Position numbers and translations under genes: made by a program
Notes under the pieces: generated by a model
The model's input: the letters and a program-made list of their open reading frames with translations, nothing else
The model's database searches: none
Told to the model about the DNA's origin: nothing
Shown here: positions 39,785-55,020 of the stretch, one piece after another
How the letters are laid out: each line of letters starts with the position of its first letter
How positions within the stretch are numbered: the first letter of the stretch is position 1
Source of the DNA: Croceivirga radicis
Lineage (GTDB): Bacteria; Bacteroidota; Bacteroidia; Flavobacteriales; Flavobacteriaceae
Direction: 5' to 3'
Assembly: GCF_002072105.2 (NCBI RefSeq)
Contig: NZ_MTBC01000013.1
Span: forward strand, 1-64,000
Length of the DNA stretch: 64,000 nucleotides

Positions 39785-40603
39785 ATGCGTTGGGTACGAT
39801 CGCTTTTTAAATTTTATTTGGATGCTAGTGTTCACGTATCATTAGCGGTATTTTGCTTATACTATGCAACCTGCGTTAAGTTGAACATTATCTTTGACTT
39901 GGATTATGCTTTTTTTTTGTTTTTTGCGACTATTGTAGGCTACAATTTTGTAAAATACGGGGTAGAGGCAAAAAAATATTGGATAGTAGCCAAACAGCGA
40001 CACAAGGCAATTCAATTATTTAGCATTTTAGCAGGCTTGGGCGCTTTCTATAGTGGGGCTAAAATTGATTCTAGTTTGTACTTTCCACTTTTTGTTTTAA
40101 CCCTTATTTCTGCCTTATATGCAGTGCCTTTTTTACCCAATGCGAAGAATCTAAGGAGTTTAGGCGGATTAAAAGTGTTTTTGGTGGCTTTTGTTTGGAC
40201 CGGGGTAACCCTTTGGTTGCCTTTATATGCTACCGGAATAACCATTGGTGTGGACCATTTAATTTTAATGCTACAGCAGTTTGTACTAGTTTTATTGCTA
40301 ATGGTTCCTTTTGAAATTAGAGACCTTAAATATGATCAGCCCGAGCTAAGAACAATACCTCAGCAAATAGGAGTGCTCAATACGAAATACGTTGCATATT
40401 TTATGTTAATCGTATTTTTAGCGAGTGCCTTATTACTGCATAAAAATATGATGCAGGTTCTATTTTTAGATTTAATCTGGGTGTTGCTTATAGCTTACTA
40501 TATCCATAAGAGTAAAGTTGACCAGTCTAAATATTTTGCTTCTTTCTGGGTAGAAGCTGTTCCAATATTTATGGCCATTGCCTTATTTGTTTTTAAGGTC
40601 TAA
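39785..40603 (+). CDS. UbiA-like prenyltransferase family membrane protein
   Basis: A 272-aa protein with 7-8 membrane segments. The loop PFEIRDLKYDQPELRTIP resembles the second Asp-rich motif (DxxxD) of UbiA prenyltransferases. The first Asp-rich motif near NFVKYGVE is not conserved (Asn-Phe-Val-Lys in place of NDxxDxxxD), so catalytic activity is doubtful. A -7-like TAATTTTG lies only 4 bp before the ATG. Its stop overlaps that of the small zinc protein on the other strand. Function unknown. Confidence 0.6.
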   Translation: MRWVRSLFKFYLDASVHVSLAVFCLYYATCVKLNIIFDLDYAFFLFFATIVGYNFVKYGVEAKKYWIVAKQRHKAIQLFSILAGLGAFYSGAKIDSSLYFPLFVLTLISALYAVPFLPNAKNLRSLGGLKVFLVAFVWTGVTLWLPLYATGITIGVDHLILMLQQFVLVLLLMVPFEIRDLKYDQPELRTIPQQIGVLNTKYVAYFMLIVFLASALLLHKNMMQVLFLDLIWVLLIAYYIHKSKVDQSKYFASFWVEAVPIFMAIALFVFKV

Positions 40604-40833
40604 GAGTTGGCTTGTTCCTTTATACGTTGTTTTATTGCCTCTTTTTCTTTTGCACTTAACGTATGCAGATTTGCTTTCTCGCACAACGCGGTTAGATACG
40701 TATTTTTCTTGGTGTGGCTAGAACAATGTTTGCAGAACAAAATATGAAAACGTAGTTTCCAAATATCCCAGAAGCCTGCTTCTTTGTACTGACTTTTGTT
40801 GCAAATTTCTGAAGCTTTATCACAAGAAATCAT
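40600..40833 (-). CDS. Minimal HxxxCxxC zinc protein, candidate anti-sigma factor
   Basis: A 77-aa protein without a membrane segment. Residues His30, Cys34 and Cys37 form the H-x3-C-x2-C motif (FHILFCKHC) of zinc-containing anti-sigma domains. Two further cysteines, Cys4 and Cys11, are in the N-terminal part. The C-terminus is a charged helix (AKEKEAIKQRIKEQ). The frame extends upstream only through a TTG; the ATG at 40833 lies 5 bp after the sigma factor stop, which implies joint expression. Anti-sigma function is inferred from motif and context. Confidence 0.75.
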   Translation of the reverse strand: MISCDKASEICNKSQYKEAGFWDIWKLRFHILFCKHCSSHTKKNTYLTALCEKANLHTLSAKEKEAIKQRIKEQANS

Positions 40834-40838
40834 AAATT

Positions 40839-41390
40839 CTAAAACCAATTATCGTTTAAACAACCCATAAGCGCCGTTCTGGCCCTATGTATCATAACCC
40901 ACAGGTTAGACGGGTTTATTCCTAATTCATTACAAATATCCTCAGTATCCATTCCTTGAATGGTTTTCATTTTAAAAACTTGCGCCTGTTTGGTAGGTAA
41001 TTTTTCTATGCAACCGTATATGGCATCACCTAATTCTTCATTTTCTAGAAATGCCTCCCCATCTCTGTCCTGGTTGTCTGCAACTCTTTTTTCTAACCAA
41101 TCTCCTTCTTCACTGTCTGCGGCAAAGTCTATTTTTACCTCAGCCTTTCCTTTTTTAGAGTTTATTTTTCTGTAATGATCAATTACCTTTCTTTTAAGAA
41201 TAGCAATTAACCAGGTACGTTCTGCGGCATCGCCTTTGAAATTGGGTGCAGATTTTAAGCCGGCAAAAAAAGTTTCTTGTACTAAGTCTTTAGCCAATTC
41301 TGCATTATTAACCCGGCTTACGGCATAATTAAAGAGGTAGTCCGCATATTTATCTACCCAAGTATCCGGATGTAATACATTTGTTGGCAT
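40839..41390 (-). CDS. ECF-type RNA polymerase sigma factor
   Basis: A 183-aa sigma-70 family protein with region 2 (WVDKYADYLFNYAVSRVNN ... DLVQETFFAGLKS ... RTWLIAILKRKVIDHYR) and region 4 (EKLPTKQAQVFKMKTIQGMD ... ICNELGINPSNLWVMIHRAR). No regions 1 or 3 are present, typical of extracytoplasmic function sigmas. The ATG at 41390 is preferred over an upstream TTG at 41411. It precedes the small zinc protein. A -7 box lies 19 bp upstream of its start. Target genes are unknown. Confidence 0.93.
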   Translation of the reverse strand: MPTNVLHPDTWVDKYADYLFNYAVSRVNNAELAKDLVQETFFAGLKSAPNFKGDAAERTWLIAILKRKVIDHYRKINSKKGKAEVKIDFAADSEEGDWLEKRVADNQDRDGEAFLENEELGDAIYGCIEKLPTKQAQVFKMKTIQGMDTEDICNELGINPSNLWVMIHRARTALMGCLNDNWF

Positions 41391-41408
41391 TGTTCTTTTT
41401 AACGTTAT

Positions 41409-41416
41409 CAAAAGTA
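41409..41416 (-). promoter_or_regulatory. -7 box of the ECF sigma gene
   Basis: The minus-strand sequence TACTTTTG matches TAnnTTTG, with an expected leader of about 12 bases. No clear -33 TTG is seen at the usual spacing. Confidence 0.4.
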
Positions 41417-41593
41417 GTCAATTTTAATAGTTACACCATTTTCTCAAGTCAAAGGTGCAATACCAACATCACAAAAAAATCACGCTTTTATCACATGTGT
41501 TTTTTAACCAGTAATTTATAAGGGAATATTTCACGGTTTTCAGGTAGTTGTTAATTTTTAATTAGGCATAACTTGCGTTTAAAACCATAAATA

Positions 41594-42019
41594 ATGAAGC
41601 AGCTCTTGTTTGGATTACTCGTGTTTTTGAATCTTATATTAGTTTTTGGTCAAACCCAAACTAATCAGAATGTTCTAGGTAAGTATAGACTTAACTGGAT
41701 AGCTTCTGGTTTTTTTCCTGCGGATGATCTTTTAATTGAGAAAACAGCGGAAGATGGCCAATACGTTTTTGAATTTAAAGAGGATGGTTCTTTTGTGCAG
41801 CACTTAACAGCAGAGACTTTTGGGGAATGCCCTGTGGGTGTTTTTGTTTTAGAAAAAGGGTTTTGGAACTTAGAGAAGGGAAAATTATCTCTTAAGATGA
41901 AAGGCGAAAAATTAGCAGATTATACGTTTGAATATGAGATTGTATATCAGATTAAGAAAGAAAAAGGTAAATTAAGGCTTTTAGTAGATAAGATTTTAAC
42001 CAATAAGGAAGTTAAATAA
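41594..42019 (+). CDS. Secreted protein of unknown function, lipocalin-like pattern
   Basis: A 141-aa exported protein. A signal peptide covers about residues 1-20 and ends at LVFGQ. The remainder is a run of beta strands with GKYRLNW near the start and YVFEFKEDGSFVQHL, a pattern common in lipocalin-like domains. I do not recognise the family. It faces away from the sigma/anti-sigma pair; a 33-aa membrane peptide frame starts 2 bp after its stop. Confidence 0.7.
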   Translation: MKQLLFGLLVFLNLILVFGQTQTNQNVLGKYRLNWIASGFFPADDLLIEKTAEDGQYVFEFKEDGSFVQHLTAETFGECPVGVFVLEKGFWNLEKGKLSLKMKGEKLADYTFEYEIVYQIKKEKGKLRLLVDKILTNKEVK

Positions 42020-42021
42020 TT

Positions 42022-42123
42022 ATGGTTTTTAAGTATAGAAAGGTAATTATAGCTTTAATAGCAACTTTAGTTACCGTTTTTATTTTGTTTAGAATGTGGC
42101 TTGTAGCCTTTGACACTTTATAA
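42022..42123 (+). CDS. Short hydrophobic membrane peptide (33 aa), candidate
   Basis: A 33-codon frame starting 2 bp after the stop of the secreted-protein gene. It encodes a basic N-terminus (MVFKYRKV), one membrane segment of about 20 hydrophobic residues and a short acidic tail (AFDTL). Spacing suggests translational coupling. The sign of a real gene is its position and its classic single-span topology; there is no independent proof of expression. The remaining 98 bases before the next gene (42124-42221) hold nothing recognisable. Confidence 0.42.
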   Translation: MVFKYRKVIIALIATLVTVFILFRMWLVAFDTL

Positions 42124-42221
42124 ATATTAGCAACGCGAGCAGGTGTTTTTAAACTGGGTTTTTGCTATATGATAATCGGTGGCGTTATCTCAACTTTAAT
42201 ACAAAGCCACAAAGTTGCCAA

Positions 42222-42644
42222 CTACTCTATCGTATTGGATATATCTTTTAAAATTATTTTTAATTTTCCGGGCTCTACTGGTTTTACAATATAGTCTGAA
42301 ATTTCACTGATTTTTTTTGCCCTTTCTATATCCTTTGGGTCTACAGAAGAAGATACCATATAAATGATGATTTTCTTACCAACTTTTGGCTTTAGTTCTA
42401 CATAACGTTCCATAAATTGAAAGCCATCCATTATTGGCATGTCTATATCCAAAAAAATAACATCTGGAAGGTCCTGGTCATTATCAATGTTGGAGATAAA
42501 AAAATCCAAAGCCTGTTCACCATCTTTAAAGACCAATATGTCTTTGACTATTTTTTGTTTGTCTAATATAGACTTCATGGTAAATTGATAGATTGGATCA
42601 TCATCAATAATACATGCACTTAAGTTTCTACGTTCTTGGGACAT
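42222..42644 (-). CDS. Single-domain response regulator (system 1)
   Basis: A 140-aa CheY-like receiver with no output domain. The acidic pocket is Asp14-Asp16 (CIIDDDPIYQ), the phosphorylation site Asp66 in FLDIDMP, the switch Ser in VSSS, and the lysine in IVKPV. It resembles the Rcp1-like response regulators found beside bacterial PAS and phytochrome kinases. Its first 17 bases overlap the end of the histidine kinase gene, so both are made together. It may act by protein contact or pass phosphate onward. The paralogue is at 48949-49371. Confidence 0.92.
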   Translation of the reverse strand: MSQERRNLSACIIDDDPIYQFTMKSILDKQKIVKDILVFKDGEQALDFFISNIDNDQDLPDVIFLDIDMPIMDGFQFMERYVELKPKVGKKIIIYMVSSSVDPKDIERAKKISEISDYIVKPVEPGKLKIILKDISNTIE

Positions 42645-45258
42645 AATTTAAATCTATTTCAAATTTGGTTCCTTTATCAATTTCACTATCAATGGTAATG
42701 TAGCCACCCATTGCTTCTACTTGCGATTTGGTCAAAAATAAACCAACTCCTTTAGCCTCTGGGTGTCTGTGAAAAACTTTATTAAGCCCAAAAACTTTAT
42801 GCCCATGCATTTTTAAATCAATGCCTAAACCATTGTCTTCAAAACTTAGAAATGCCCTTCCTTGTTTAATTTTAGATGTAATCTTTAAAATAAGCGGCCT
42901 ATGTTTAGACCTATATTTAATAGCGTTACCAATTAAATTTAGGAAAATACTATCCAAATATATCTTGTTGTATTCTACACAGGGCAAATTACTAAAATCT
43001 ACTTTGATGGTCGCATTTGAATTAATAATCTCTGCAGCTAGTATTTCCTTAGTATTTTTAACGGTTTTTGCCAGTGTTATCTTTTCTACATTTTTATTGC
43101 CTTCACTTTTAGCTTTTATAGATTCTACAAGCGTATTAAGTGTTAAGGTAAGATGGTCTATTACCATCTCGAACTTTTCAAACAACTCAGCTTTGCCAAG
43201 TTCATCTGTTTCCTCTTTATGTAGCTCTAGCAGCATATTTAAGTTGCTAACGGGAGACCGTAAATTGTGAGAGGTTATATGGTTAAATTCTGCTAATTGG
43301 TTGTTTCTCTTTGCTAATTTATTAGAATATTCTTGTAAATCTTTGTTGGCCCTAAGCAATTGCTTTTCCGCTTTTTTTAATTCTGTAATATCCCTTAAAG
43401 CTATAATCACCAAAGGACCATCTTCTGTAAAAAGCGGGCTCAAACTTAATTGTGCAGGTACTTCGTTTCTGCCATTATGCATAACATAAAAGTCTTGCTT
43501 AAATCCTAATTTTTGATGTTTAAAGTCTTCAAAAAACGTTTTAGCATAGTTATACATGGCATTGTGTTGCCTTTGTGGGGTAAGTTGGGCAACAGAAAGC
43601 CCTACTAGATCTTTGGCCGCCATGCCAAAAAGTGTTTCTGATTGTTTGTTGGTAATCTGTATAATGCCCTTTTTATCTACAATAATCATGGTATCTGGAG
43701 CGGACTCTAGTAAATTTTTAAATTTTATTTCTTCCATGCGTTGCATGGTTACATCTTGTAATGTACCGCTAATTTCTATTACTTCTCCTTCTGGATTGGT
43801 GATGGCAACCGCTAGTAATTGAATGGTTTTGATACTACCATTTTTTAGTACGATACGGTGTAATATATCATGGTATTTCTTGCCTTGAAAAGCCAAGGTT
43901 ATTTGTTCAGAAACAAATTGTTGGTCTTCTGGATGTATGTAGTTAAAATAGGTGTCAAATACTATTTTTGTGCCAGGCTCGTGCTCAAATATAGTATACA
44001 TCATATCTGACCATTCTATGTTGTTGTTGCCAACATCCCATTGCCAATAGCCAATCTTGGAAAGGTTTTCTACAAAGGTTAGGTATTCGTTTTTTCTTAT
44101 GAGTTCTGTTTCTGTTTTTTTCTGAAGTGTGATGTCTTGTAACGTTCCGCTTATCTCTTTTACTGCACCATTTTTGTTACCAATGGCAACGGCTAGCAAT
44201 TGCAATGTTTTAATGGTGCCGTCATTAAGGAGAATCCTGTATGGAAACTCGTGATATTTTTTACCGTTAAAAGCTAGTTGTATGTTGTCAGAAATGAGTT
44301 GCCTATCTTCTGGATGTACAAGCGCAACAAAATCATCAAACATAATTTTGGTGCCGGGCTCTAAACCAAAAGTGTCATAAAGAATATCTGAAAAAAATAT
44401 TTCATTGGTAATCGTGTTCCATTGCCAATATCCTATTCTCGCTAGTTTTTCAGAAAAGCTTAAAAATTCATTTTTACGGGTTAAATCATTTTCAATTGCT
44501 TTTTGTTCGGTTATGTCTTGGGCAGCTCCGGCAACTTCTATTACTTCGTTAAAACTGTCTGTAATTACTTTTCCAGATAATTCAATTGTTCTTTCGGTTC
44601 CATCATCAAGGACAATACGATAGGAATATTTCTGAAATCTTTTATTTTTTAAAACATCTTCTGAAATTTGCACCACCTTGCTTCGATCGTCTGGATGTAT
44701 TCTTGCTAGTACCTTATCATAATCCATTACCTCTGCGGTAGGTATTTGAAAAATGTGGTACAGTTGTTTGGACCAAACTACTTGGTTCGTTAGGGTGTTC
44801 CAACTCCAATAGCCAGAATTGCTTACTTTTTCTGCTAGGTTTAATTGTTCAACGGTGGTAGTTAGTCTAAGTTCATTTTCTTTTCTAAGCGTTATGTCTT
44901 CAAATATTCCGTAGCTCCTTACACATACACCATTTTCAAAATCTGCTTGGCCTGTGGTTCTTACATGTTTAGTATTTCCTTTAGCCGTTAAAATCTCTAG
45001 ATCAATATCAAAAGGTTCCCCTTTTTCTTTTAAATTGGAATAAGCTTTTTCAAATAGAGCTCTATTTTTTCCTTCTTTATAGAAACTAAATCCATTGGAT
45101 TTGGAAGGAATAAAATCTGGTGGTAATTCAGCAATGTCATTGATAACGGAATTCCATAGCAATGAGTCCTCTTCGTAATCAAATTGCCATATACCAATTT
45201 TAGCGTGATGGTTTATTTTTTGTAGAATATCGTCTACTTGGATAAGGGGAGCTTTCAT
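42628..45258 (-). CDS. Soluble multi-PAS sensor histidine kinase (system 1)
   Basis: An 876-aa kinase without membrane segments. Four PAS_3-like modules with PAC ends start near residues 22, 148, 275 and 402, all with the pattern G-x-W-x-W (GYWSWN, GYWQWN, GYWQWD) and HPEDR loops, followed by a fifth PAS (about 512-625). The dimerisation H-box is HITSHNLRSP with phospho-His664, and the ATP domain has N-box NAIKY, G1 DNGLGID and G2 GVGLFLTKS. Its stop overlaps the response regulator by 17 nt. A -7 box, TAAATTTG on the minus strand (45311-45318), lies upstream. Sensed signals are unknown. Confidence 0.92.
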   Translation of the reverse strand: MKAPLIQVDDILQKINHHAKIGIWQFDYEEDSLLWNSVINDIAELPPDFIPSKSNGFSFYKEGKNRALFEKAYSNLKEKGEPFDIDLEILTAKGNTKHVRTTGQADFENGVCVRSYGIFEDITLRKENELRLTTTVEQLNLAEKVSNSGYWSWNTLTNQVVWSKQLYHIFQIPTAEVMDYDKVLARIHPDDRSKVVQISEDVLKNKRFQKYSYRIVLDDGTERTIELSGKVITDSFNEVIEVAGAAQDITEQKAIENDLTRKNEFLSFSEKLARIGYWQWNTITNEIFFSDILYDTFGLEPGTKIMFDDFVALVHPEDRQLISDNIQLAFNGKKYHEFPYRILLNDGTIKTLQLLAVAIGNKNGAVKEISGTLQDITLQKKTETELIRKNEYLTFVENLSKIGYWQWDVGNNNIEWSDMMYTIFEHEPGTKIVFDTYFNYIHPEDQQFVSEQITLAFQGKKYHDILHRIVLKNGSIKTIQLLAVAITNPEGEVIEISGTLQDVTMQRMEEIKFKNLLESAPDTMIIVDKKGIIQITNKQSETLFGMAAKDLVGLSVAQLTPQRQHNAMYNYAKTFFEDFKHQKLGFKQDFYVMHNGRNEVPAQLSLSPLFTEDGPLVIIALRDITELKKAEKQLLRANKDLQEYSNKLAKRNNQLAEFNHITSHNLRSPVSNLNMLLELHKEETDELGKAELFEKFEMVIDHLTLTLNTLVESIKAKSEGNKNVEKITLAKTVKNTKEILAAEIINSNATIKVDFSNLPCVEYNKIYLDSIFLNLIGNAIKYRSKHRPLILKITSKIKQGRAFLSFEDNGLGIDLKMHGHKVFGLNKVFHRHPEAKGVGLFLTKSQVEAMGGYITIDSEIDKGTKFEIDLNYVPRT

Positions 45259-45310
45259 CTATTAATTTTATAAATCTTACAAATCAACATCATATGTAAG
45301 AATTAGCTTT

Positions 45311-45318
45311 CAAATTTA
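45311..45318 (-). promoter_or_regulatory. -7 box of histidine kinase 1
   Basis: The minus-strand TAAATTTG matches the -7 consensus; the leader would be about 45 bases. A TTG lies 15 bp upstream, shorter than usual spacing. Confidence 0.38.
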
Positions 45319-45446
45319 AAAAAATAATCCAGTCAAATAATAAATGATGCTATATGTGGTTAGTTCTTAATAAATTATCACTTTTTACTATCTAAACGAA
45401 CTTATTTTTCACTGGATTCTGGGGGTAGCGTCTTGGATAGGGTAAA

Positions 45447-45454
45447 TATCTTTG
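45447..45454 (+). promoter_or_regulatory. -7 box of the MORN-like gene
   Basis: TATCTTTG matches TAnnTTTG, 26 bp before the ATG at 45481. The -33 region has no TTG at standard spacing. Confidence 0.42.
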
Positions 45455-45480
45455 TTGTGTGGTAATAAAAACATGAAATT

Positions 45481-48045
45481 ATGATACCAAATAAATTAAG
45501 ATACCTTCTTCTATTTTACACCTTTATTGTTTGTGTGGTACCAATAAACGCGCAAAAGGATACTATTTTTTACGATGCGCAGTGGAAGGTTATAAACAGC
45601 AAGGATAGCGCTAGCTTTTATAGACCACCTATTAAGAAAGTAGGTGATTTATTCCACATTCAGGATTACCATATTAGCGGTCAAGTGCAAATGGACGGCT
45701 ATTCTACATCAGATGTTAAAGATATTTGGACCGGCAAGGTAAGTTGGTATTATAAAGATGGTTCCCTACAGCAAGAAGCCAATTATAGTGATGGCTATTT
45801 AGAAGGGGAATTTATTTCCTTTTTGAACGGCGAAAAGCTAACGGCCCTATATAAAAAAAATAGATGGGTCTCTGGAAAAAGAAATATAGTTTATGCTTCT
45901 GGTAGAAAATACTACATGGAGAAAAAAGGAGATACCATAAAAGAAATTATTTATCAAGATAGCATTGATGGTATTAGGTTAGAGCGTGTTGGTACCGATG
46001 AAATCTACGAGATTTATGCCGTATATTATGGAAAAGGTGGTGCGTATATTGGTAAGAAAAACAAGCTGCAAAATGGTAAAATAGATGGGGTAGATGTTAT
46101 TTATAACTATGATCCAATGCGCGTGGTTAGTGTTTCCTATTATGATCAAGGAACGTATTTGGGTAAAACGGCATATTATCCAAATGGTAAACTACAAGCT
46201 CAATTTAAAAAGGAACCCGAGCTATCCACTATTTATTATAACCGTAATGGTGAACAAATAGGTGAAATTACCTATACTTTAGATCAATATGGTAGTAAAC
46301 CCTATAATGGAAAGGAATATTCTTTTGGTTATTATGGTGCAAAAGGAGCGGATGCCTACTGTATAAAATCTAGTAGAACATATGCTAACGGCAATATATC
46401 CGAAGACGAAACCTATTATGACGAATGTGGAGTCTTAAAAACCGTAAACAAATACAAAGACGGTAAAAAATACCTGCAAATAAGCTATTTAGAAAATGGC
46501 GATGAATTATCCCGTATGGAGTACGATAATTACAGACCCATGAACGGCACCCAAATAGTTAGGGATACTAAATCTACCTATAAAGATGGAAAATTAATTG
46601 TAGAGACCAATTATTTTCCAAACTCCAAAGTGGTAAAGTCCACAAAAACTCCGCTCAAGGAAGTTTATTTTGATTTTAATGGAGAGAAACTGGGAGAACT
46701 TTCTTTAAATGGAGATGAAACATATCCAAAACCAGTAGACGGATTGCGTTTTTCTTATCATTACAAGAAAAATACGGTGGAGCGCATAGAAGCGTATAAA
46801 GATGGTGTAATTGTAAAAGCCACCAACTGGAGAGAACAAACTATTGGTAACAATAAAATCGAAACATTTAAAGAGGTTAACGAATATGCCCCAAATGGAT
46901 ACGATAAAGTAAGAACCGTAAAATTTTATAGCAACGGTGAAAAACAAAGTGATATTACATACAAAGGTTATAAAGAACAAAACGGACTTTTTTACGACCA
47001 AGAGGGCAAGTTGATTGGAGAGTATGATTTTCTTACTAAAAATGGTAAGCGCTATGAATTTTTCTCTAATAGCGATGAAATAAAGGAGTTTGAAGAATCT
47101 AAAAACGGAAAACAACTTAAATTTAAACGTTACGATTATGGCCCGTATACTACTAGTGGAGCCATTAATCCTGTTTTAATGGAAGATATAGATGTAGCTT
47201 GTTGCGCTATGTTCTATAAAAGAGAAGGCGGATTAATTGCAAAAACCGAATTCAAAAATGGGATTCCTTGGGCTGGAGAATATTTTGATACCAAAACAAG
47301 AGAAAAATTTACCATAGAAAATGGAGTAAAATCTGGTTCATATCAAAAGCTAGATTATAACTTTCAAGTTCTAGAAGAAGGTAATTATGTGGCGGATAAA
47401 AAGGAAGGAACGTTCAAAAAATTTACCTATGCAGGTGCAATTATCTCTGAAGAAAACTACAAAGCAGGTGTTTTACATGGAGTTTCTACCTATTTTGATG
47501 AAAAAGGTGAGGTTGTTGGAAAGATGGAATATAAAGATGGGAATCCGTATGAAGGTACAAGAACATTAGATACGTCTTACAAAAAAGAAAAAAGAACACA
47601 AGTTTATAAGGCAGGGAGGCTAACCAAAGAAATCGCTGTATCTGATAATGGCCGTTTGGTAAAAACTTTTAAAGACGATGATACGGTACTTTGCGAATTG
47701 TTTTATTTAGATACAGCCAAAAAGAAACTAGTCTACAACCTATCTGGCGGTGTTATTAATGGTAAGGTAATCAGATATGACCAAGAAGGAAAAATACAGG
47801 CAACCGCAAATATTGAAAGAAGTACGTACAAATCTGGAGTACTATTTCTAAAACCACAATATTCAGACAATGGCGCTGCATACTACAAGGTTGGGAAAAA
47901 TGAAAAGGAAATTGAGATTACCATTTTTAATGAAAGGGATGAAAAGATTTTCTCGTCTATAGAACAGTTACAATTTAACAATGCTATTTTCTCACAAAAG
48001 TTAGAGGTCAATACCAATCAAGTGTATGAGTATAATTTATACTAG
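45481..48045 (+). CDS. Exported MORN-variant repeat protein
   Basis: An 854-aa protein with an N-terminal signal peptide (cleavage near PINAQ, about residue 25). The mature part is a long array of MORN-variant repeats of the YwqK type, with the pattern Y-x-(D/N)-G, for example YYKDGSLQQEANY, FLNGEKL, YYPNGKLQAQF, YANGNISEDETYYDE, FYSNGEKQSDITY and TYFDEKGEVVGKMEY. The repeats are about 22-30 residues and imperfect. MORN repeats bind partners or membranes in other organisms; YwqK-like proteins have been called antitoxins, without evidence here. Its last 20 bases overlap the lipoprotein gene. Paralogous two-component systems flank the pair. Confidence 0.8.
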   Translation: MIPNKLRYLLLFYTFIVCVVPINAQKDTIFYDAQWKVINSKDSASFYRPPIKKVGDLFHIQDYHISGQVQMDGYSTSDVKDIWTGKVSWYYKDGSLQQEANYSDGYLEGEFISFLNGEKLTALYKKNRWVSGKRNIVYASGRKYYMEKKGDTIKEIIYQDSIDGIRLERVGTDEIYEIYAVYYGKGGAYIGKKNKLQNGKIDGVDVIYNYDPMRVVSVSYYDQGTYLGKTAYYPNGKLQAQFKKEPELSTIYYNRNGEQIGEITYTLDQYGSKPYNGKEYSFGYYGAKGADAYCIKSSRTYANGNISEDETYYDECGVLKTVNKYKDGKKYLQISYLENGDELSRMEYDNYRPMNGTQIVRDTKSTYKDGKLIVETNYFPNSKVVKSTKTPLKEVYFDFNGEKLGELSLNGDETYPKPVDGLRFSYHYKKNTVERIEAYKDGVIVKATNWREQTIGNNKIETFKEVNEYAPNGYDKVRTVKFYSNGEKQSDITYKGYKEQNGLFYDQEGKLIGEYDFLTKNGKRYEFFSNSDEIKEFEESKNGKQLKFKRYDYGPYTTSGAINPVLMEDIDVACCAMFYKREGGLIAKTEFKNGIPWAGEYFDTKTREKFTIENGVKSGSYQKLDYNFQVLEEGNYVADKKEGTFKKFTYAGAIISEENYKAGVLHGVSTYFDEKGEVVGKMEYKDGNPYEGTRTLDTSYKKEKRTQVYKAGRLTKEIAVSDNGRLVKTFKDDDTVLCELFYLDTAKKKLVYNLSGGVINGKVIRYDQEGKIQATANIERSTYKSGVLFLKPQYSDNGAAYYKVGKNEKEIEITIFNERDEKIFSSIEQLQFNNAIFSQKLEVNTNQVYEYNLY

Positions 48046-48937
48046 GTCTCAGCAGGGAAAATTATTTTCTGGTTATTCGCTTTCTTTTTTGGTGGCAATC
48101 ACGTTTTTAATTGTAAACGGTTGTAAAGGAAGTAAGGAAGAACCACCTGTTGCTTATGAAAATGAAACTTCCATTGAAGAAAATGGTTTGCGGGTACGTA
48201 CTGTTTCTATTTTACCAAAAAGTCCGCAGCCAGGGCCAAATTCTTTTACCTACGGACAAACGGTGGTTACCAAATTTATGGCTGTACAGGGGTTTAGAGA
48301 AGATAAAGATGAGGTGCAACCTTCTTTAAGTATAACGGTAACTAATTTAGAAGGAGATACCTTGTTGTACGAACCTGAATTATTAAATGGGTTGTCCCAG
48401 CCAAAGGATACCGAACTGTCTGGAATTTTAACTTTGGCGCATCCTATGCGTTCTGGCCACAGGTATATGGCTACCTATGTATTGTCAGATTTAAAATCTA
48501 ATGCGAGCTTAATACATCAAATGCCATTTAAAATTGAACCAGATTCGCATTTTCAAGTAATGGAAAAGGGGCTTAAGGTAGGTGAGGTCTATTGTCTAAA
48601 CACAAAGAAGAATACAATTATCTCTGATGGTAAAATTCCTTTTGATGAACAAGTGTCTCTTAACCTACAATTTTTGGAAGGATATACAAAAAACAGTAAC
48701 GGTATTCGTTTAGGCATGTCCGTTATCGTTCAAGATGCCAAAGGAAAGCTAATTGTAAATGAAGAAGATGTTTTAAAAGGGCAAAGTTATTTCCAAATAC
48801 ATCCTCAAGAGATAATTTATAACTATTTACAAATTCCAAAAGGAAACATACATAATCCAGTAGATTGGAGAGTAAAGGTATGGGATAAAAATAGTGATGC
48901 CAGTTTAAAGGTGGTAGGTAACGTAAGTTTAAGATAA
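48026..48937 (+). CDS. Lipoprotein of unknown function
   Basis: A 303-aa protein with an unusually long N-region before the signal helix, ending in LIVNGC with Cys33 as the lipobox cysteine. The mature protein has immunoglobulin-like beta patterns (SITVTNLEGDTLL, LSLTFNLG-like strands) but no recognised domain. Its start lies 20 bases inside the MORN-like gene in another frame; no later ATG is available, so the overlap is real or the start is a non-ATG codon. The two products are probably localised together in the cell envelope. The stop is 11 bp from that of the convergent response regulator. Confidence 0.75.
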   Translation: MSIIYTRSQQGKLFSGYSLSFLVAITFLIVNGCKGSKEEPPVAYENETSIEENGLRVRTVSILPKSPQPGPNSFTYGQTVVTKFMAVQGFREDKDEVQPSLSITVTNLEGDTLLYEPELLNGLSQPKDTELSGILTLAHPMRSGHRYMATYVLSDLKSNASLIHQMPFKIEPDSHFQVMEKGLKVGEVYCLNTKKNTIISDGKIPFDEQVSLNLQFLEGYTKNSNGIRLGMSVIVQDAKGKLIVNEEDVLKGQSYFQIHPQEIIYNYLQIPKGNIHNPVDWRVKVWDKNSDASLKVVGNVSLR

Positions 48938-48948
48938 AATGCTAAGGG

Positions 48949-49371
48949 TTATTTAACGGTATTTTCTATTTGCCTTACCATTGCGGCTAATTTACTTTCC
49001 TCAATAGGTTTTATAAGGTACTCTTTTATGTTTTCAATTTTATTGGCCTTAACTATATCTTTTGGGTCTAAGGAGGAAGAACTCATATAAATTGTGGCCG
49101 TTTTTTTTAGTTGTGGTAAAAGTATTTCATATTGCTCCATAAACTGAAACCCATCCAATACCGGCATGTCTATATCTAGCAATACCAGGTCTGGTATCTT
49201 TTCTGGTTCTTGCGCATGGCTACTTAGATAGTCAATGGCTTCTTCTCCATCATTAAAAATATAAATCTCTTTAAAACAAGCCATTTTGGTTAAAATAGCT
49301 TTCATGGTGAACTGATAAATGGTGTCATCATCAATTATACATGCTATAAGACCTTTACGCATCAGTACCAT
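48949..49371 (-). CDS. Single-domain response regulator (system 2)
   Basis: A 140-aa receiver-only protein, paralogous along its full length to the regulator at 42222-42644: same length, same CIIDDD, phospho-Asp66 in LLDIDMP, SSSS switch and IKPI lysine. No DNA-binding domain. It overlaps the end of histidine kinase 2 by 17 nt, exactly as in system 1. Confidence 0.92.
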   Translation of the reverse strand: MVLMRKGLIACIIDDDTIYQFTMKAILTKMACFKEIYIFNDGEEAIDYLSSHAQEPEKIPDLVLLDIDMPVLDGFQFMEQYEILLPQLKKTATIYMSSSSLDPKDIVKANKIENIKEYLIKPIEESKLAAMVRQIENTVK

Positions 49372-52300
49372 TGTTTAAATTGATTATAAATGTGGTTCCT
49401 TTGTCCACTTCACTTACCACGTCTATTGTGCCTCCCATAGCCTCAATTTGGGCTTTAGTCATAAACAGTCCTATACCGCGAGCTTCTGGATTTCTATGAA
49501 ATACTTTGTGTAATCCAAAAACCTTGTGGCCATGTTTCTTTAAATCAATGCCTAGGCCATTATCCGTAAATTGTAAGTGCACTTTGTTTTCCTTGATATA
49601 ACTTTTTATGGTAACCTTGGGTTTTCTTGAAGGACAGCTGTATTTAATACTGTTGCTAATAAGATTTAAGAAAATACTTTCTAAGTAAATTTTATGATAA
49701 CAAACAACCTGCTTAGCCGAGAAATCCGATACTATTTCAACATCCTTTTCTTTGATTTGAGCGGCCAAGAGTTCAGTAGTTTTACGCAAAACAACATCTA
49801 ATTCCAGTTGCTCTTTCTCTGGATTTGTTTCGTTCTTAATCATTAAACTTTCTATAAGTGTGTTTAATGTTTCATTTAGATGATGGGAAACCGTTTCCAG
49901 TTTTTCAAAAATAAGGTCTTTGCTCTCCTGATCTGGCGTTTCCTTATAAAAATTAATTAACGTTTTTAAGTTGTTTACTGGAGACCGAAGGTTGTGAGAG
50001 GTAATATGGGTGAAATCTTCTAATTGCCTATTCTGGATTCGGAGTTTCTCAGAACTTTCTTTTAGTTCAGCATTTGCTAAAAGTAGTTCTTCCTCTTGTT
50101 GTTTTATTATGGTTATATCTTTAAGGGTTATAATGGCCAATGTTTGGTTATTTACCTTAAAGGGACCAAGAGTCACGGTGGCCGGAATGCGACGTCCATC
50201 TTTATGTACTAAATGCAAGTCGTCAAAATCGGTTAAGGTTAAGTTCTTTGGGTTTTTAAAGAACGCTTCATAATAGGCTACACTTTTTTTACGATATCCT
50301 TTTGCAACCAAGTTTACTACTATAAATTCTTTTAATTCTTGCGCTGTGTAACCAAAGAATTGTTCTGCCTGCTTGTTTACCAGTTGTATTTCACCATCTT
50401 CATTTGCAATAAGTATTGCGTCTGGGGTTGCGGCAAACAAATCTCTAAATCTAATTTCGGCTTCGTGTTCCGTACTAATATCTTTAACCGTTCCGAGAAC
50501 CTCGGTAATTTCGTTTTTGGCATCCAAGATTACTTCTCCTTTGGCTTCAATAATTTTAATTTGGCCTTCTGGAGTCTTGATCTTGTAGGTGTGTTTTGGG
50601 AACCTTTTACTTTTGAAAATTTCTTGGTAGGCATCCAAAAGAATTTTATGGTCTTCTGGCAGTACATATTCCATTACATCCTCAAACGTCATTTTTTTGC
50701 CAATGGGCGCTCCAAATATCCTATAATGGTTATCGGACCATTCACCTTCGTTATTTTCATTGGGTTTTAAACGCCAATGCCCTAGGTTATTTAGTTGTTC
50801 TGCAGTATTTAAAAGGTGGTTGTTTCTAATTAGTTGCTGGGTCTTCTCTTCTTGTTCGGTTACATCTTGTAGCGTTCCAATAACTTCTATAAGTTCATTC
50901 TTTTCATTGTATTGCCCAACAGCTACCAAATGTATGTTTTTTACGGAGCCATTTTGTAATTGTATCCTATGGAATACATCATGGTGTTTTTTGCCTGCAT
51001 AAGCTGCCTCAACTTGCTGCTGAACATAATCTCTATCCCCTTCGTGTATGTAGTTGTAGTAGGTTTCAAAAGTAATTGGAGCGCCTTTTTCATGTTCAAA
51101 AATTTCATAAAGGTTATCAGACCATATAATCTCATGGGTAACCGTATTCCATTGATAATAACCAATTTTAGCTAGTTTTTCTGCAATGTTTAGATGGTTG
51201 TTCTTTCTAATTAATTCCTGTTGTTGGCCTACTTGTTCAGTAATATCTTGGCAGGTGCCAAGCATTTCAATCACCTTACCCTCTTTGTTGTGTATTACCT
51301 TACCAACAGACTTTATGGTTTTAATTGCTCCGTTTCTTAACTGAATACGGTAAATCTGATTATCAAAAATGCCGGTTTCAAACGCTTTTCTTATTTTATC
51401 AGAAACATATTTCTTGTCATCTTGGTAAACATAACCAATGTAAGTATCGTAACTTATGGTGGCATCTTTTTCGTGTCCGTATATTTTGTATAAATTTTTG
51501 GACCATGTAACTGAATTAGTTTCTGGAAACCAACTCCAATGGCCCACTATGGCCATTTCTTCTGCCAAATTTAACTGATGGTTTTTTTGGATTAAGAGCT
51601 GCTCTTTTTTTTCTTGTTCGGTAATATCTTGGCAGGTGCCAATCATTTCAACCACCCGGTTATTTTCTATCACCTTTACTTCGCCAACCGTTTTTATGGT
51701 TTTGGTTTTGCCATTTGGTAATTGAATTTGATAGACTATATCGTTGAAAATCTTTGTTTTAATAGCTGTTTCAATATTCTTGGCTACTTTTTCTTTATCC
51801 GTATCAACAATGAAGCTTGTAAATTTATCTAAGGTTATTACGGTATTTTTTTCTACTTCATAGATGTCATAAAGATTGTCTGACCATAAAGCGATGTCTT
51901 CTTCCAAATTCCAGGTCCAGTGGCCTATACTTGCCATTTTTTCAGCTTTTCTAAGCTGATAGTTTTTTTGTTTAAGTTGTTTTTCCTTCTGTATTTGTTC
52001 CGTAATATCCTGGGCTGTTCCGATAATTTCAACAATGGTGTTGTTGGAATCTATAGTGGTTTGCCCTTGCAGTTCAATATGTTTGATTACACCAGTTTCT
52101 AGAACAATCCTATAACTGAATTTATCAAATACACCTGTATTTAAAATGTTGTTGGTACAATGCTCTACATGTGCTAAATCTTCTGGATGTACTTTGGCAA
52201 TGGCATCGTTGAACTTTAGGGGCGTGCCTGGGGCAACCTCAAAAATAGAATATAGGTTCTTAGACCAGGTAACTTCATCTGTAGGTAAAGTCCACTTCCA

Positions 52301-52750
52301 ATAACCAATAGCCACTGTTTTCTCTGCAAATCGTAACTGTTGATTTTGAATTTGCAGGTCTTTTTCTAACCCCTTTCTTTCCGTTATATCTTGGGCAATG
52401 CCATAAATTTTATTCGGATTTCTATCTTTATAATCTACTTCTGCAATACACCAAATATGTTTTGTATTGCCTTTTAGGGTTCGTATTTCAACGTCTACAT
52501 TAATCATTTCTCCCGAAGTTAGGGCTCCATTAAAGGCATTGCGTATAATTGCCTTGCTTCTAGCGTCTTGAAATAACGAAAATGTGTTTTCACGGTTGGG
52601 AATAAACCCTTGGTCTGCTTCTACTATCTCATGTACACCATTACTCCAAGAAAGTAGGTCTTTTGCAATATCATATTCAAATATGCCAATTTTGGCAATT
52701 TTGCCAGCCTTATTGAATTTATCGGTCTGAATTTGAGGTGAATTAAACAT
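49355..52750 (-). CDS. Soluble multi-PAS sensor histidine kinase (system 2)
   Basis: An 1131-aa kinase with no membrane segments. Six PAS_3-like modules in tandem carry signatures such as GYWKWT, GHWTWN, GHWSWF, GYYQWN and GHWRLK, then a seventh PAS (FRDLFAATPDAILIANEDG). The kinase core has phospho-His919 in HITSHNLRSP and an intact HATPase domain with NSIKY, DNGLGID and GIGLFMTKA. It is paralogous to kinase 1 but has two extra PAS units. The PAS units resemble one another more than most PAS domains do, suggesting duplication within the gene. It shares the 17-nt overlap with its response regulator. The 204 bp upstream of it hold only the dcp terminator. Confidence 0.92.
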   Translation of the reverse strand: MFNSPQIQTDKFNKAGKIAKIGIFEYDIAKDLLSWSNGVHEIVEADQGFIPNRENTFSLFQDARSKAIIRNAFNGALTSGEMINVDVEIRTLKGNTKHIWCIAEVDYKDRNPNKIYGIAQDITERKGLEKDLQIQNQQLRFAEKTVAIGYWKWTLPTDEVTWSKNLYSIFEVAPGTPLKFNDAIAKVHPEDLAHVEHCTNNILNTGVFDKFSYRIVLETGVIKHIELQGQTTIDSNNTIVEIIGTAQDITEQIQKEKQLKQKNYQLRKAEKMASIGHWTWNLEEDIALWSDNLYDIYEVEKNTVITLDKFTSFIVDTDKEKVAKNIETAIKTKIFNDIVYQIQLPNGKTKTIKTVGEVKVIENNRVVEMIGTCQDITEQEKKEQLLIQKNHQLNLAEEMAIVGHWSWFPETNSVTWSKNLYKIYGHEKDATISYDTYIGYVYQDDKKYVSDKIRKAFETGIFDNQIYRIQLRNGAIKTIKSVGKVIHNKEGKVIEMLGTCQDITEQVGQQQELIRKNNHLNIAEKLAKIGYYQWNTVTHEIIWSDNLYEIFEHEKGAPITFETYYNYIHEGDRDYVQQQVEAAYAGKKHHDVFHRIQLQNGSVKNIHLVAVGQYNEKNELIEVIGTLQDVTEQEEKTQQLIRNNHLLNTAEQLNNLGHWRLKPNENNEGEWSDNHYRIFGAPIGKKMTFEDVMEYVLPEDHKILLDAYQEIFKSKRFPKHTYKIKTPEGQIKIIEAKGEVILDAKNEITEVLGTVKDISTEHEAEIRFRDLFAATPDAILIANEDGEIQLVNKQAEQFFGYTAQELKEFIVVNLVAKGYRKKSVAYYEAFFKNPKNLTLTDFDDLHLVHKDGRRIPATVTLGPFKVNNQTLAIITLKDITIIKQQEEELLLANAELKESSEKLRIQNRQLEDFTHITSHNLRSPVNNLKTLINFYKETPDQESKDLIFEKLETVSHHLNETLNTLIESLMIKNETNPEKEQLELDVVLRKTTELLAAQIKEKDVEIVSDFSAKQVVCYHKIYLESIFLNLISNSIKYSCPSRKPKVTIKSYIKENKVHLQFTDNGLGIDLKKHGHKVFGLHKVFHRNPEARGIGLFMTKAQIEAMGGTIDVVSEVDKGTTFIINLNNGTDA

Positions 52751-52909
52751 GTAATAATAAACGGCTAATTGTGCTATAAATTATTTTTTTAGGTAGAAGG
52801 AGTCTTATATAAATGTAAGGTATTATCTATTAAATTACTACAAGTACCTCTGCTGAAATGCAAATACTATGGAAACTTACTAGTAGTTTTAGGCAGTGTT
52901 ATTTTGAAA

Positions 52910-52944
52910 ATAGACTCCCTAACCGTATTTGAAAGGGAGTCTAT
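52910..52944 (-). terminator. Terminator of the M3 peptidase gene
   Basis: The perfect 11-bp stem ATAGACTCCCT (52910-52920) pairs with 52934-52944 around a 13-base loop, 10 bp past the stop. The T run is short (TTTTC). Confidence 0.65.
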
Positions 52945-52954
52945 TAGATGTGTT

Positions 52955-54982
52955 TTATGCAGATTTTAGTAAACCGGCACGTTCTAAAAGTGCCTCAATC
53001 TTAGGTTCGGCACCTCTAAATTTCTTGTACAAATCCATAGGGTTTGCTGTACCTCCTTTAGATAGTACGTAATCTTTAAATTTTGTGGCTACCTCTTTGT
53101 TAAAAATGCCTTTTTCCTTGAAATAGGCAAAAGCATCCGCATCTAAGACTTCTGCCCATTTGTAGCTGTAATAACCAGAGGCATAACCTCCCTGAAATAT
53201 ATGGGAGAAAGAAGTACTCATACAGGTTTCAGGTGTTTCAGGATATAATTGGGTGCCTGCAAAAGCTTTGCTTTCAAAACTTTTTACATTGGTAATCTCT
53301 GTTGGGTCTTGGCCGTGCCAAGCCATGTCCAATAAACCAAAACTTAATTGGCGTACGGTTTGCATCCCTTCTTGAAAGGTGGCGGAATCTTTTATTTTTT
53401 GTACCAATTCCATAGGAATTAGTTCTCCTGTTTCATAATGATGGGCAAACAATTCTAGCGCTTCTTTCTCATAACACCAATTCTCGAGAACCTGACTTGG
53501 CAACTCTACAAAATCCCAATATACAGAAGTTCCAGAAAGGCTAGGGTAGGTGGTGTCTGCCAGCATACCGTGTAAACCATGACCAAATTCATGAAATAAG
53601 GTAGTAACCTCATTAAACGTTAATAAAGACGGTTTGCTAGCTGTAGAGGGAGTAAAATTACAAACATTACTTACATGTGGCCGCACATTTTTTCCATCTT
53701 TTCTAAATTGAGATTTAAAAGAGGTCATCCAAGCGCCACCACGTTTGCCTGGTCTAGGATGAAAATCGGCATAAAAAAGAGATAAGAAACCACCACTGGC
53801 ATCGTAAACTTCAAAAGTTTTTACATCTTCATGGTACTTATCTATGTTGGTTACTTCCTTAAACGAAAGTCCAAATAGTTTTTCGGCAACCTTAAAGACA
53901 CCATCAATAACATTTTCTAACTTAAAATAGGGTTTAAGCGTTTCATCATCCAAATCAAAAAGCTTCTGCTTTAGCTTTTCACTATAAAAAGCACTGTCCC
54001 ACTTTTGTAGCTGGTCTATACCATCTGTTTCTTTGGCAAAATCTTGTAATTGCTTAAACTCAGCTTCGGCAGCAGGCTTAGCTTTGCTCAATAGTTCTTG
54101 TAGAAAATTATTTACTTTTTCCGGGGTTTCTGCCATACGCTCTTCCAGCACATAGTGTGCGTGGGTAGCATAGCCTAACAATTGGGCACGCTCAAAACGT
54201 AGTTTGACTATCTTTAAAACATTTTTCTGGTTGTCTAGTTCATCCCCATGAAACCCTTTGCTGCCAAAGGCCAAGGATAGTTTTTTGCGCAATTCCCTGT
54301 TTTCTGCATATTTCATAAAAGGAATGTAACTTGGGTAATCTAGGGTAATTAACCAACCATCTAATTCTTTTGTTTTTGCCAATTGCGCGGCCGCCTCTTT
54401 GGCGCCTTCAGGCAAGCCAGCTAAATCAGACTCATCCGTTAGATGCATTTGAAATTTGTTGGTTTCTGCCAATACATTTTCACCAAAGGTGAGTTTTAAT
54501 TTTGCCAGTTCCGCATCAATTTCTCGCAACCGCTCTTTTTTGTCTTCCGGTAAGTTGGCGCCGTTTCTGCTAAATGCTTTGTAGCGCTTGTCTAGTAATT
54601 GTTGTTGCTCGCCATTAAGGTCTAAACTGTCTTTTTGTTCATAAACCGTTTTAACCCTTTTAAATAAGCCTTCGTTTAAGGTAATATCGTTCTGAAAAGC
54701 TGATAATAATGGAGAAACTTCTTGAGCTATTTTTTGAATGTGCTCATTGGTCTCTGCTGAATTTAGGTTAAAGAAAACGCTGGTAACCCGATCTAATTGA
54801 TAGCCCGCATAGTCCAACGCCGCGATGGTATTCTCAAAGGTTGGGGCTTCTTTATTGTTGGCAATTGCCTCAATTTCTGCTTTTGCCAAGGAGATACTTT
54901 CTTCTATTGCAGGTTTAAAATGCTCGTTTTTTATCTGGGAAAACGGAGCCATATCAAACGGTTCTAACAAAGGATTTTTCAT
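52955..54982 (-). CDS. M3 family oligopeptidase (Dcp/oligopeptidase A type)
   Basis: A 675-aa zinc peptidase. The zinc motif is HEFGH at residues 464-468 in TTLFHEFGHGLHGML, with the downstream Glu in the WDFVELPSQ region. The length and N-terminus (NPLLEPFDMAPFSQIK) match peptidyl-dipeptidase Dcp and oligopeptidase A. It has no signal peptide, so it acts in the cytoplasm. The reading frame extends upstream only via a TTG, hence the ATG at 54982. Just upstream is an 8-copy heptanucleotide repeat that separates it from purE. Confidence 0.92.
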   Translation of the reverse strand: MKNPLLEPFDMAPFSQIKNEHFKPAIEESISLAKAEIEAIANNKEAPTFENTIAALDYAGYQLDRVTSVFFNLNSAETNEHIQKIAQEVSPLLSAFQNDITLNEGLFKRVKTVYEQKDSLDLNGEQQQLLDKRYKAFSRNGANLPEDKKERLREIDAELAKLKLTFGENVLAETNKFQMHLTDESDLAGLPEGAKEAAAQLAKTKELDGWLITLDYPSYIPFMKYAENRELRKKLSLAFGSKGFHGDELDNQKNVLKIVKLRFERAQLLGYATHAHYVLEERMAETPEKVNNFLQELLSKAKPAAEAEFKQLQDFAKETDGIDQLQKWDSAFYSEKLKQKLFDLDDETLKPYFKLENVIDGVFKVAEKLFGLSFKEVTNIDKYHEDVKTFEVYDASGGFLSLFYADFHPRPGKRGGAWMTSFKSQFRKDGKNVRPHVSNVCNFTPSTASKPSLLTFNEVTTLFHEFGHGLHGMLADTTYPSLSGTSVYWDFVELPSQVLENWCYEKEALELFAHHYETGELIPMELVQKIKDSATFQEGMQTVRQLSFGLLDMAWHGQDPTEITNVKSFESKAFAGTQLYPETPETCMSTSFSHIFQGGYASGYYSYKWAEVLDADAFAYFKEKGIFNKEVATKFKDYVLSKGGTANPMDLYKKFRGAEPKIEALLERAGLLKSA

Positions 54983-55020
54983 TGTTTTCTTTTTCAAATT
55001 TTAATTTCTTCAGTTTCTTA

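Follow-up and report, generated by a model that had tools for sequence, protein, structure and literature searches.

Introduction

Single-domain response regulators of the Rcp type, such as RcpB (1k66) and the receiver protein 4xlt, consist of a receiver only and are about 140 aa long. EpsW of Myxococcus is described in PMC12802240 as a single-domain regulator that acts by protein contact, between EpsW and EpsZ. For Porphyromonas, PMC4800418 describes the PorY-PorX-SigP system, in which a two-component regulator binds an ECF sigma factor. Here we analysed a locus within a 64-kb window (the window being the whole stretch of DNA analysed) in which two histidine kinase-regulator (HK-RR) pairs lie on either side of the genes for a MORN-repeat protein and a lipoprotein. 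The locus is a duplicated case of an already known type of system. We assign a probability of about 0.7 to the reading that an operon for a soluble multi-PAS histidine kinase and a single-domain (Rcp/CheY-like) regulator was duplicated within a variable slot and partly insulated, that the MORN_2 gene is a separate resident of the slot with its own history and the lipoprotein gene an occasional companion, and that the bracketing amounts to a shared address. A preliminary description of the locus had proposed that one module was duplicated around a conserved payload.

Results

Gene content of the locus

All six open reading frames of the preliminary description were confirmed at their coordinates. 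They are given here together with the genes at the borders.

RR1, 42222-42644, minus strand: receiver-only regulator of 140 aa; Asp66 by motif; 17-nt overlap with HK1
HK1, 42628-45258, minus strand: multi-PAS histidine kinase of 876 aa; 4 units of 127 aa, a last PAS and DHp/CA; H-box His 664
MORN, 45481-48045, plus strand: MORN_2-repeat protein of 854 aa; signal-like N-terminus; all-beta repeat model
Lipoprotein (LPP), 48026-48937, plus strand: predicted, 303 aa; lipobox by eye; model with beta-sandwich regions
RR2, 48949-49371, minus strand: receiver-only regulator of 140 aa; Asp66 by motif; start maybe the ATG at codon 4
HK2, 49355-52750, minus strand: multi-PAS histidine kinase of 1131 aa; 6 units of 127 aa, a last PAS and DHp/CA; H-box His 919
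ECF sigma factor, 40839-41411, minus strand: borders the variable slot on one side; possible output partner of RR1 and RR2
Next protein after the ECF gene, 40600-40848, minus strand: 82 aa; putative anti-sigma by position and Cys/His content; no Pfam hit
Peptidase gene, 52955-54997, minus strand: opposite border of the variable slot

The peptidase is presumably of the M3 type, and we take the flanks to be hpt-adk, purK, purE and the peptidase gene on one side and the ECF gene, the short protein, a UbiA-like gene and gcvP on the other. RR2 and HK1 are 3.69 kb apart. As listed, the open reading frames overlap by 17 nt in RR1/HK1 and in RR2/HK2, and by 20 nt in MORN/lipoprotein. The 17-nt overlaps had been called exact, which holds for the listed frames but depends on the start codon chosen: an in-frame ATG at codon 4 of RR2 gives an 8-nt overlap with HK2. 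From their own ATG, RR2 of the related genome of Flavobacterium sp. ASW18X (G002) and the RR of G001 also overlap by 8 nt, and RR1 of ASW18X by 11 nt. The window RR1 was the sole regulator among those compared to have no alternative ATG, GTG or TTG upstream of the receiver domain. The exact 17-nt overlap is a matter of start codon and no common feature of the pairs.

A TATCTTTG box, at about 45447-45454 in the window, stands ~26 nt ahead of a MORN ATG in both the window and ASW18X, and we take it to resemble the Bacteroidota -7 box. No RNA element reached the gathering threshold in 36000-57000. The scans for sigma-70-type promoters (29 sites vs 44.6 in shuffles, that is, fewer) and for terminators (9 vs 7.6 in shuffles) were uninformative.

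The kinase-regulator pairs are paralogous

Pfam domain matches were taken at E ≤ 0.001. Both regulators have the receiver PF00072 as their sole Pfam domain, without an output domain, in line with their earlier designation as receiver-only. HATPase_c (PF02518) was found in HK1 and HK2 at 52.5 and 61 bits against a cut-off of 26.4, and PAS is also present in both. The preliminary description had the kinases sharing H-box and HATPase motifs: the latter is borne out by Pfam and the former was read directly from the sequence as SHNLRSP, but HisKA (PF00512) gave no Pfam match at E ≤ 0.001 in HK1 or HK2. The H-box has the form H-[ND]-L-R-[SAG]-P in 18 of 18 aligned cores. Among the Pfam matches of the locus proteins there is no HPt domain or hybrid receiver, so that, in place of the phosphorelay proposed earlier, one-step phosphotransfer would be the simplest reading. 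A PDB search with HK2 returned no match at E ≤ 1e-25. The usual hydropathy threshold for strongly hydrophobic segments is about 1.6. Kinases and regulators have a maximal 19-residue hydropathy mean of at most 1.26 and carry no such segment; the kinases look cytoplasmic.

RR1 and RR2 are 52% identical over 136 aa, and HK1 and HK2 40% over 863 aa. When RR2 was searched against its own genome, 16 matches were obtained at E ≤ 1e-5; RR2 itself and RR1 came first, followed by two matches at 33% and 35% identity. A DNA repeat search of 41400-53100 revealed blocks of 196 nt (71%) and 60 nt (80%) in a register of 6727 nt, as well as PAS repeats at 381-nt spacing. HK1/RR1 and HK2/RR2 are paralogous pairs, far beyond chance. 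This upholds the earlier view of the two pairs as duplicated relatives, and the regulators, for which membership of unrelated families had been named as an outcome against the module idea, are close kin.

The kinases differ by whole PAS units

The PAS units of these kinases repeat every 127 aa. The two kinases had been said to have the same PAS architecture, which is true of its kind but not of the number of units, as HK1 has 4 and HK2 has 6 before the last PAS. We took 26 kinases of the type and subtracted 160, an offset chosen by eye, from the number of residues that separate the start from the H-box; the result is approximately a whole number of 127-aa units, ranging from 2 to 12. The unit counts of 24 of the 26 lie within 0.11 of an integer and those of 22 within 0.1, the off-integer kinases being those of G222 (4.76) and G163 (9.83). 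A period scan of the 26 kinases that uses no offset peaked at 126.5-127 with R 0.91, a value reached by 0 of 2000 uniform null sets, a null that is too easy because the kinase rows are related. These kinases thus differ by whole 127-aa PAS units, 2 to 12 in number. HK1 has 4 units in the window and 2 in ASW18X, and the two HK1 genes may not be one-to-one orthologues. Such whole-unit differences could be used to find out what number of sensor units a kinase requires and how a signal travels along a long stack.

The MORN protein and the lipoprotein

The MORN protein matches MORN_2 (PF07661) at 38.2 bits against a cut-off of 29.6, which together with its signal-like start agrees with its earlier description as a MORN-like exported protein. 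The lipoprotein gave no Pfam or NCBIfam match at E ≤ 0.001. The N-terminal segments of the two are export-like, with maximal 19-residue hydropathy means of 1.78 (MORN) and 1.82 (lipoprotein), and by eye the MORN start is signal-like and the lipoprotein start lipobox-like. Both proteins look exported, and the kinases and regulators lack such segments, so direct contact between a regulator and the MORN protein or lipoprotein, as proposed in the preliminary description, is unlikely.

The model of the MORN protein (mean pLDDT 86, pTM 0.53, ten alignment rows) is a long run of beta hairpins, and the alignment profile matches the MORN chains of SET7/9 at E about 0.0006. A closed, Rhs-like shell was considered on the strength of low Foldseek E-values, but the TM-scores to the listed Rhs, teneurin and Tc entries were 0.04-0.11; since these are near 0.1, we claim no shell fold. 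On the LIC20035 adhesin model the MORN protein scored 21.6 bits, below the cut-off of 250. For the lipoprotein, a model built on a four-row alignment (mean pLDDT 78) is all beta. Its fold matches include RbmA and many Ig-like and arrestin-like folds, and because the query TM-scores were only 0.19-0.27 among the 50 matches listed, we limit the claim to beta-sandwich regions.

We also considered an anti-phage defence system and set it aside: PADLOC models at E ≤ 0.01 gave no match for MORN, LPP, HK1 or HK2. One of four block proteins from relatives (p474) had two PADLOC matches, and it matches PDC-M72A.

The neighbours of the MORN gene elsewhere are of several kinds. LRR-DUF1963, macro-domain, DUF4132-type and unknown genes recur near MORN, and sometimes near the lipoprotein gene, at nine loci (L058, L060, L076, L078, L059, L079, L134, L135 and L155). 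The lipoprotein gene lies 7-13 kb before MORN in G185, G224 and G229; LRR-DUF1963 genes are present there in each case, joined by macro-domain genes in G185 and G224 and by a DUF5724/DUF4132 gene in G229. In Winogradskyella flava (L146) the lipoprotein gene is directly ahead of MORN. A more distant MORN homologue occurs at L063 and L064. SMI1/KNR4-type genes, one clear and one below the cut-off, lie nearby at L063, and the neighbours at L064 are similar by eye; an SMI1/KNR4-type neighbourhood is a known setting of immunity proteins.

The slot in relatives

The slot lies between the peptidase gene and the ECF sigma gene and has the same flanks in relatives. Its content varies among these relatives: some have nothing there, some have other genes, and some have a single HK-RR, two HK-RR in tandem (HK-RR-HK-RR), MORN by itself, or MORN with HK-RR. 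Our genus sample comprised 11 genomes, counting that of the window; all 11 carry the ECF gene, and 8 have no HK-RR in the slot. The two flanks adjoin, leaving the slot empty, in four genomes (G003, G004, G005 and G006); four or five other genes occupy it in G007, G008 and G009, and two genes without a match in G010. G001 has one HK-RR in the slot, with another gene ahead of it. Only the window and ASW18X have twin HK-RR around MORN, and the lipoprotein gene, not found in ASW18X, occurs in the window alone.

Between 36819 and 57952 of the window, the proteins from the peptidase through hpt-adk are 97-99% identical to those of ASW18X. Identities to ASW18X are 43% for MORN, 42% for HK1, 59% for RR2, 69% for HK2, 77% for the ECF sigma factor and 84% for gcvP. 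The sharp identity step at the slot edge may reflect recent recombination or fast change.

Beyond these, a single HK-RR occupies the same slot in G181, G085, G021 and G193, as it does in G001. Tandem HK-RR-HK-RR stand there in G236 (L065) and in Pseudozobellia sp. WGM2 (L158), with MORN outside the pair in WGM2. Scanning named genomes with the MORN alignment yielded 77 loci, every one of which we compared with the proteins of the window; for 21 of them we also mapped the genes. MORN is in the slot without HK-RR in G185, G224, L132, L134, L156, L157, L164 and L210. It is directly divergent from a single HK-RR in the slot at four Maribacter loci (L148, L150, L151 and L152), and at three more Maribacter loci (L153, L155 and L165) it is followed by one HK-RR with a further gene between. 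None of the Maribacter loci compared yielded the lipoprotein. Flavobacteria fill this slot with a range of cassettes, and a symmetrical setting of a gene pair is not in itself a sign of function.

Association of MORN with HK-RR is suggestive

One alternative to a shared address is that HK-RR belong with MORN, and perhaps the lipoprotein, in a single functional module that was duplicated around its payload, with the kinases controlling surface genes. In its favour, the twin has MORN inside it in two species, MORN diverges from a single HK-RR in the four Maribacter loci, and the TATCTTTG box precedes MORN in the window and ASW18X. Counts also lend it some support. Among 68 slots, 10 had both, 8 MORN only, 6 HK-RR only and 44 neither (Fisher p 0.0005), so that HK-RR was found in 10 of 18 MORN-bearing slots compared to 6 of 50 others. 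The survey started from 70 slots, from which L101 (without the peptidase gene), L118 (not syntenic) and L155 and L158 (incomplete border) were dropped; L135 and L147 were left out as incomplete, L061 was removed as the same genome as L156, and L155, L158 and L153 were added by hand. The 68-slot sample is biased because the named slots (ten, and the three added) came from the MORN search.

A less biased sample of 55 slots, which leaves out the ten named slots and L210, is made up of the genus slots plus those with the highest-ranking ECF matches in the family. Of its genomes, seven (G162, G236, G181, G085, G021, G185 and G224) were first fetched for MORN or RR and are also among the top 25 ECF matches. 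Here, 2 slots had both, 3 MORN only, 6 HK-RR only and 44 neither (p 0.15), with HK-RR in 2 of 5 MORN slots compared to 6 of 50 others. In a tree built from the peptidase protein, at least 7 changes in MORN and 8 in HK-RR are required. Its supported branches hold only 3 (or 2) independent pairs, which is too small a number of independent cases; of the 3 pairs, on average 0.2 changed in the same direction and 0.1 in opposite directions, with no difference in the other trait in 2.7.

At the level of genomes, we searched 249 genomes of the family and found the RR type in 23 (E ≤ 1e-30), MORN in 9 (E ≤ 1e-40) and the lipoprotein in 10 (E ≤ 1e-10). With kinship ignored throughout, MORN and the lipoprotein share 4 genomes vs 0.36 expected (p 0.00015), MORN and the RR type 4 vs 0.83 (p 0.005), and the lipoprotein and the RR type 1 vs 0.92 (p 0.63). 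MORN and RR are adjacent in only one of the four genomes that have both, namely the window; in G011, G021 and G181 they are on separate contigs or some 0.57 Mb from each other. All three occur together in the window only. Within the genus, MORN is present in 2 of 11 genomes, the lipoprotein in 1 and RR2-like regulators (E ≤ 1e-20) in 3, which leaves little of the claim that the payload is conserved. That idea had been tied beforehand to the envelope pair accompanying HK-RR in relatives; HK-RR mostly stand there without the pair, so it fails.

Collectively, the association of MORN with HK-RR in the slot is suggestive, and HK-RR, MORN and lipoprotein do not occur together across relatives as a conserved module would. 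MORN lacks HK-RR in 8 of 18 slots and HK-RR lack MORN in 6, the p value is 0.15 once the slots picked for MORN and L210 are set aside, the lipoprotein is missing from the ASW18X and Maribacter results, and the regulators have no DNA-binding domain. We therefore regard a functional module as quite improbable.

History of the twin pairs

To the extent that the trees speak, the simplest story is one in-place duplication in the genus, after which HK2/RR2 diverged. A tree of concatenated HK core and RR (26 rows) placed the window and ASW18X copies and G001, five genus sequences, on one side of a branch with support of 82/82, which was not starred. HK2/RR2 of the window and of ASW18X pair at 100/100. 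The HK1/RR1 copies are unpaired in the best tree, with ASW18X HK1 joining the HK2 pair at 95/92. Constraining window HK1 with ASW18X HK1 was not rejected (AU p 0.097).

Alternatively, there was no duplication in this lineage, and the pairs were gained separately and are alike since this HK-RR type recurs in the slot. The position of ASW18X HK1 in the tree fits such gains. So does the window HK1 core, which is nearer to other genera than to its ASW18X counterpart (65% to G085 vs 56%), as well as the tandem copies of G236 and WGM2, which fall on different branches, apart from the window's pair. Separate gain is nevertheless unlikely in our judgement, as the five genus sequences share one side of a branch, a constraint uniting the four twin copies was not rejected (AU p 0.309) and the DNA repeats are in register. 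With duplication in the genus as the preferred account, HK1 was possibly replaced in one species, because the window HK1 core is closer to G085 than to ASW18X HK1 and the tree leaves the HK1 copies unpaired.

The single kinase of G001 has an HK2-like last PAS (63%). Its unit 6 is 54-57% identical to unit 6 of HK2 and its unit 5 is 59-61% identical to unit 4 of HK2, its core is closest to that of G021 (65%), and its RR is RR1-like. We considered that G001 carries a collapsed chimera, HK2-like at the PAS end and RR1-like in the regulator; an ancestral single copy explains this equally well, and we do not claim it.

Residues that may insulate HK2/RR2

We compared alignments of 18 RRs and 18 cores for residues common to both HK2/RR2 copies and other than that kept by both HK1/RR1 copies, by G001 and by at least 70% of 13 others. 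Four RR positions (52, 71, 72 and 117 of RR2) and four core positions, namely a Ser to Asn change at H+7 and three more, were of this kind. Residues 71-72 of RR2 are the two after DMP and follow the phospho-Asp loop, and the positions just after the H-box set partner choice. The mirrored control for the HK1/RR1 copies gave 0 RR and 0 core positions, though this control is weak, as the HK1 copies resemble each other less. Some of the HK2/RR2-specific residues are also seen in single other rows, such as Val at 71 in 3 of 13. With a duplicated pair and a single-copy relative at the same address, residues that separate paralogous signalling lines can be tested.

Discussion

Read from its motifs, each kinase would use its stack of equally long PAS units to sense cues in the cytoplasm, would autophosphorylate on the H-box His and would pass the phosphate to Asp66 of its own regulator. 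Since the regulator has no output domain, it would act by binding another protein, probably a cytoplasmic one. MrrA is reportedly a further precedent for this mechanism. After the duplication, positions beside the phospho-transfer surfaces would have changed in HK2/RR2, with the common residues retained in HK1/RR1 and in the single-copy relative, and these changes would lower cross-talk. The MORN protein and lipoprotein would be reachable only through gene expression.

By position, the ECF sigma factor encoded next door, or its antagonist, may be the most plausible target, in the manner of PorX acting on SigP, and this suggestion is a weak one. In HK-RR slots where the contig reaches, the ECF gene is downstream of the RR on the same strand, which is partly by construction as the slots were defined by the ECF gene, and in G001 the gap between RR and ECF gene is 120 nt. 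The binding of an ECF sigma factor by a two-component regulator, as described for Porphyromonas (PMC4800418), makes such a route conceivable. However, conservation of the ECF gene does not depend on the presence of HK-RR (202 of the 249 genomes have it), another gene (rhodanese-like or other), often on the opposite strand, usually intervenes, and HK-RR copies of the same kind lie far from this ECF gene in G177, G163, G086, G222 and G221. PorX is also larger, with a profile of 513 positions, and RR1 at 140 aa falls below the cut-off of the PorX model NF052313, with 28.1 bits vs 300. We thus consider it doubtful that the regulators act on the adjacent sigma factor. A bolder reading makes the slot a hotspot at which an accordion cytoplasmic kinase, with its 2-12 PAS units and in-place duplication, has come together time and again with a variable MORN surface protein and governs its expression through the receiver-only regulator and the adjacent ECF sigma factor; this we hold to be very unlikely.

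Among the titles and abstract openings listed in literature searches, we found no description of twin HK-RR around MORN and lipoprotein genes. The components themselves compare with known systems as follows. RR2 scores weakly on the EpsW model (31.9 bits vs a cut-off of 200), and the slot differs from the EpsW setting in that no phosphoglycosyl transferase was recognised in it. PorY-PorX-SigP is likewise a Bacteroidota two-component pair; its partner is an ECF sigma factor, which at this locus is a candidate only. Among MORN_2 repeat proteins (PF07661), the window protein is a large form of 854 aa with a signal-like start. Systems of the Rcp type, whose members RcpB (1k66) and 4xlt were among four solved-structure matches of RR1 at E ≤ 1e-9 (with RR1 as the only query), have the same receiver-only build of about 140 aa; they differ in their partner kinases, since those at this locus are PAS arrays and the Pfam matches of HK1 and HK2 include no phytochrome domain.
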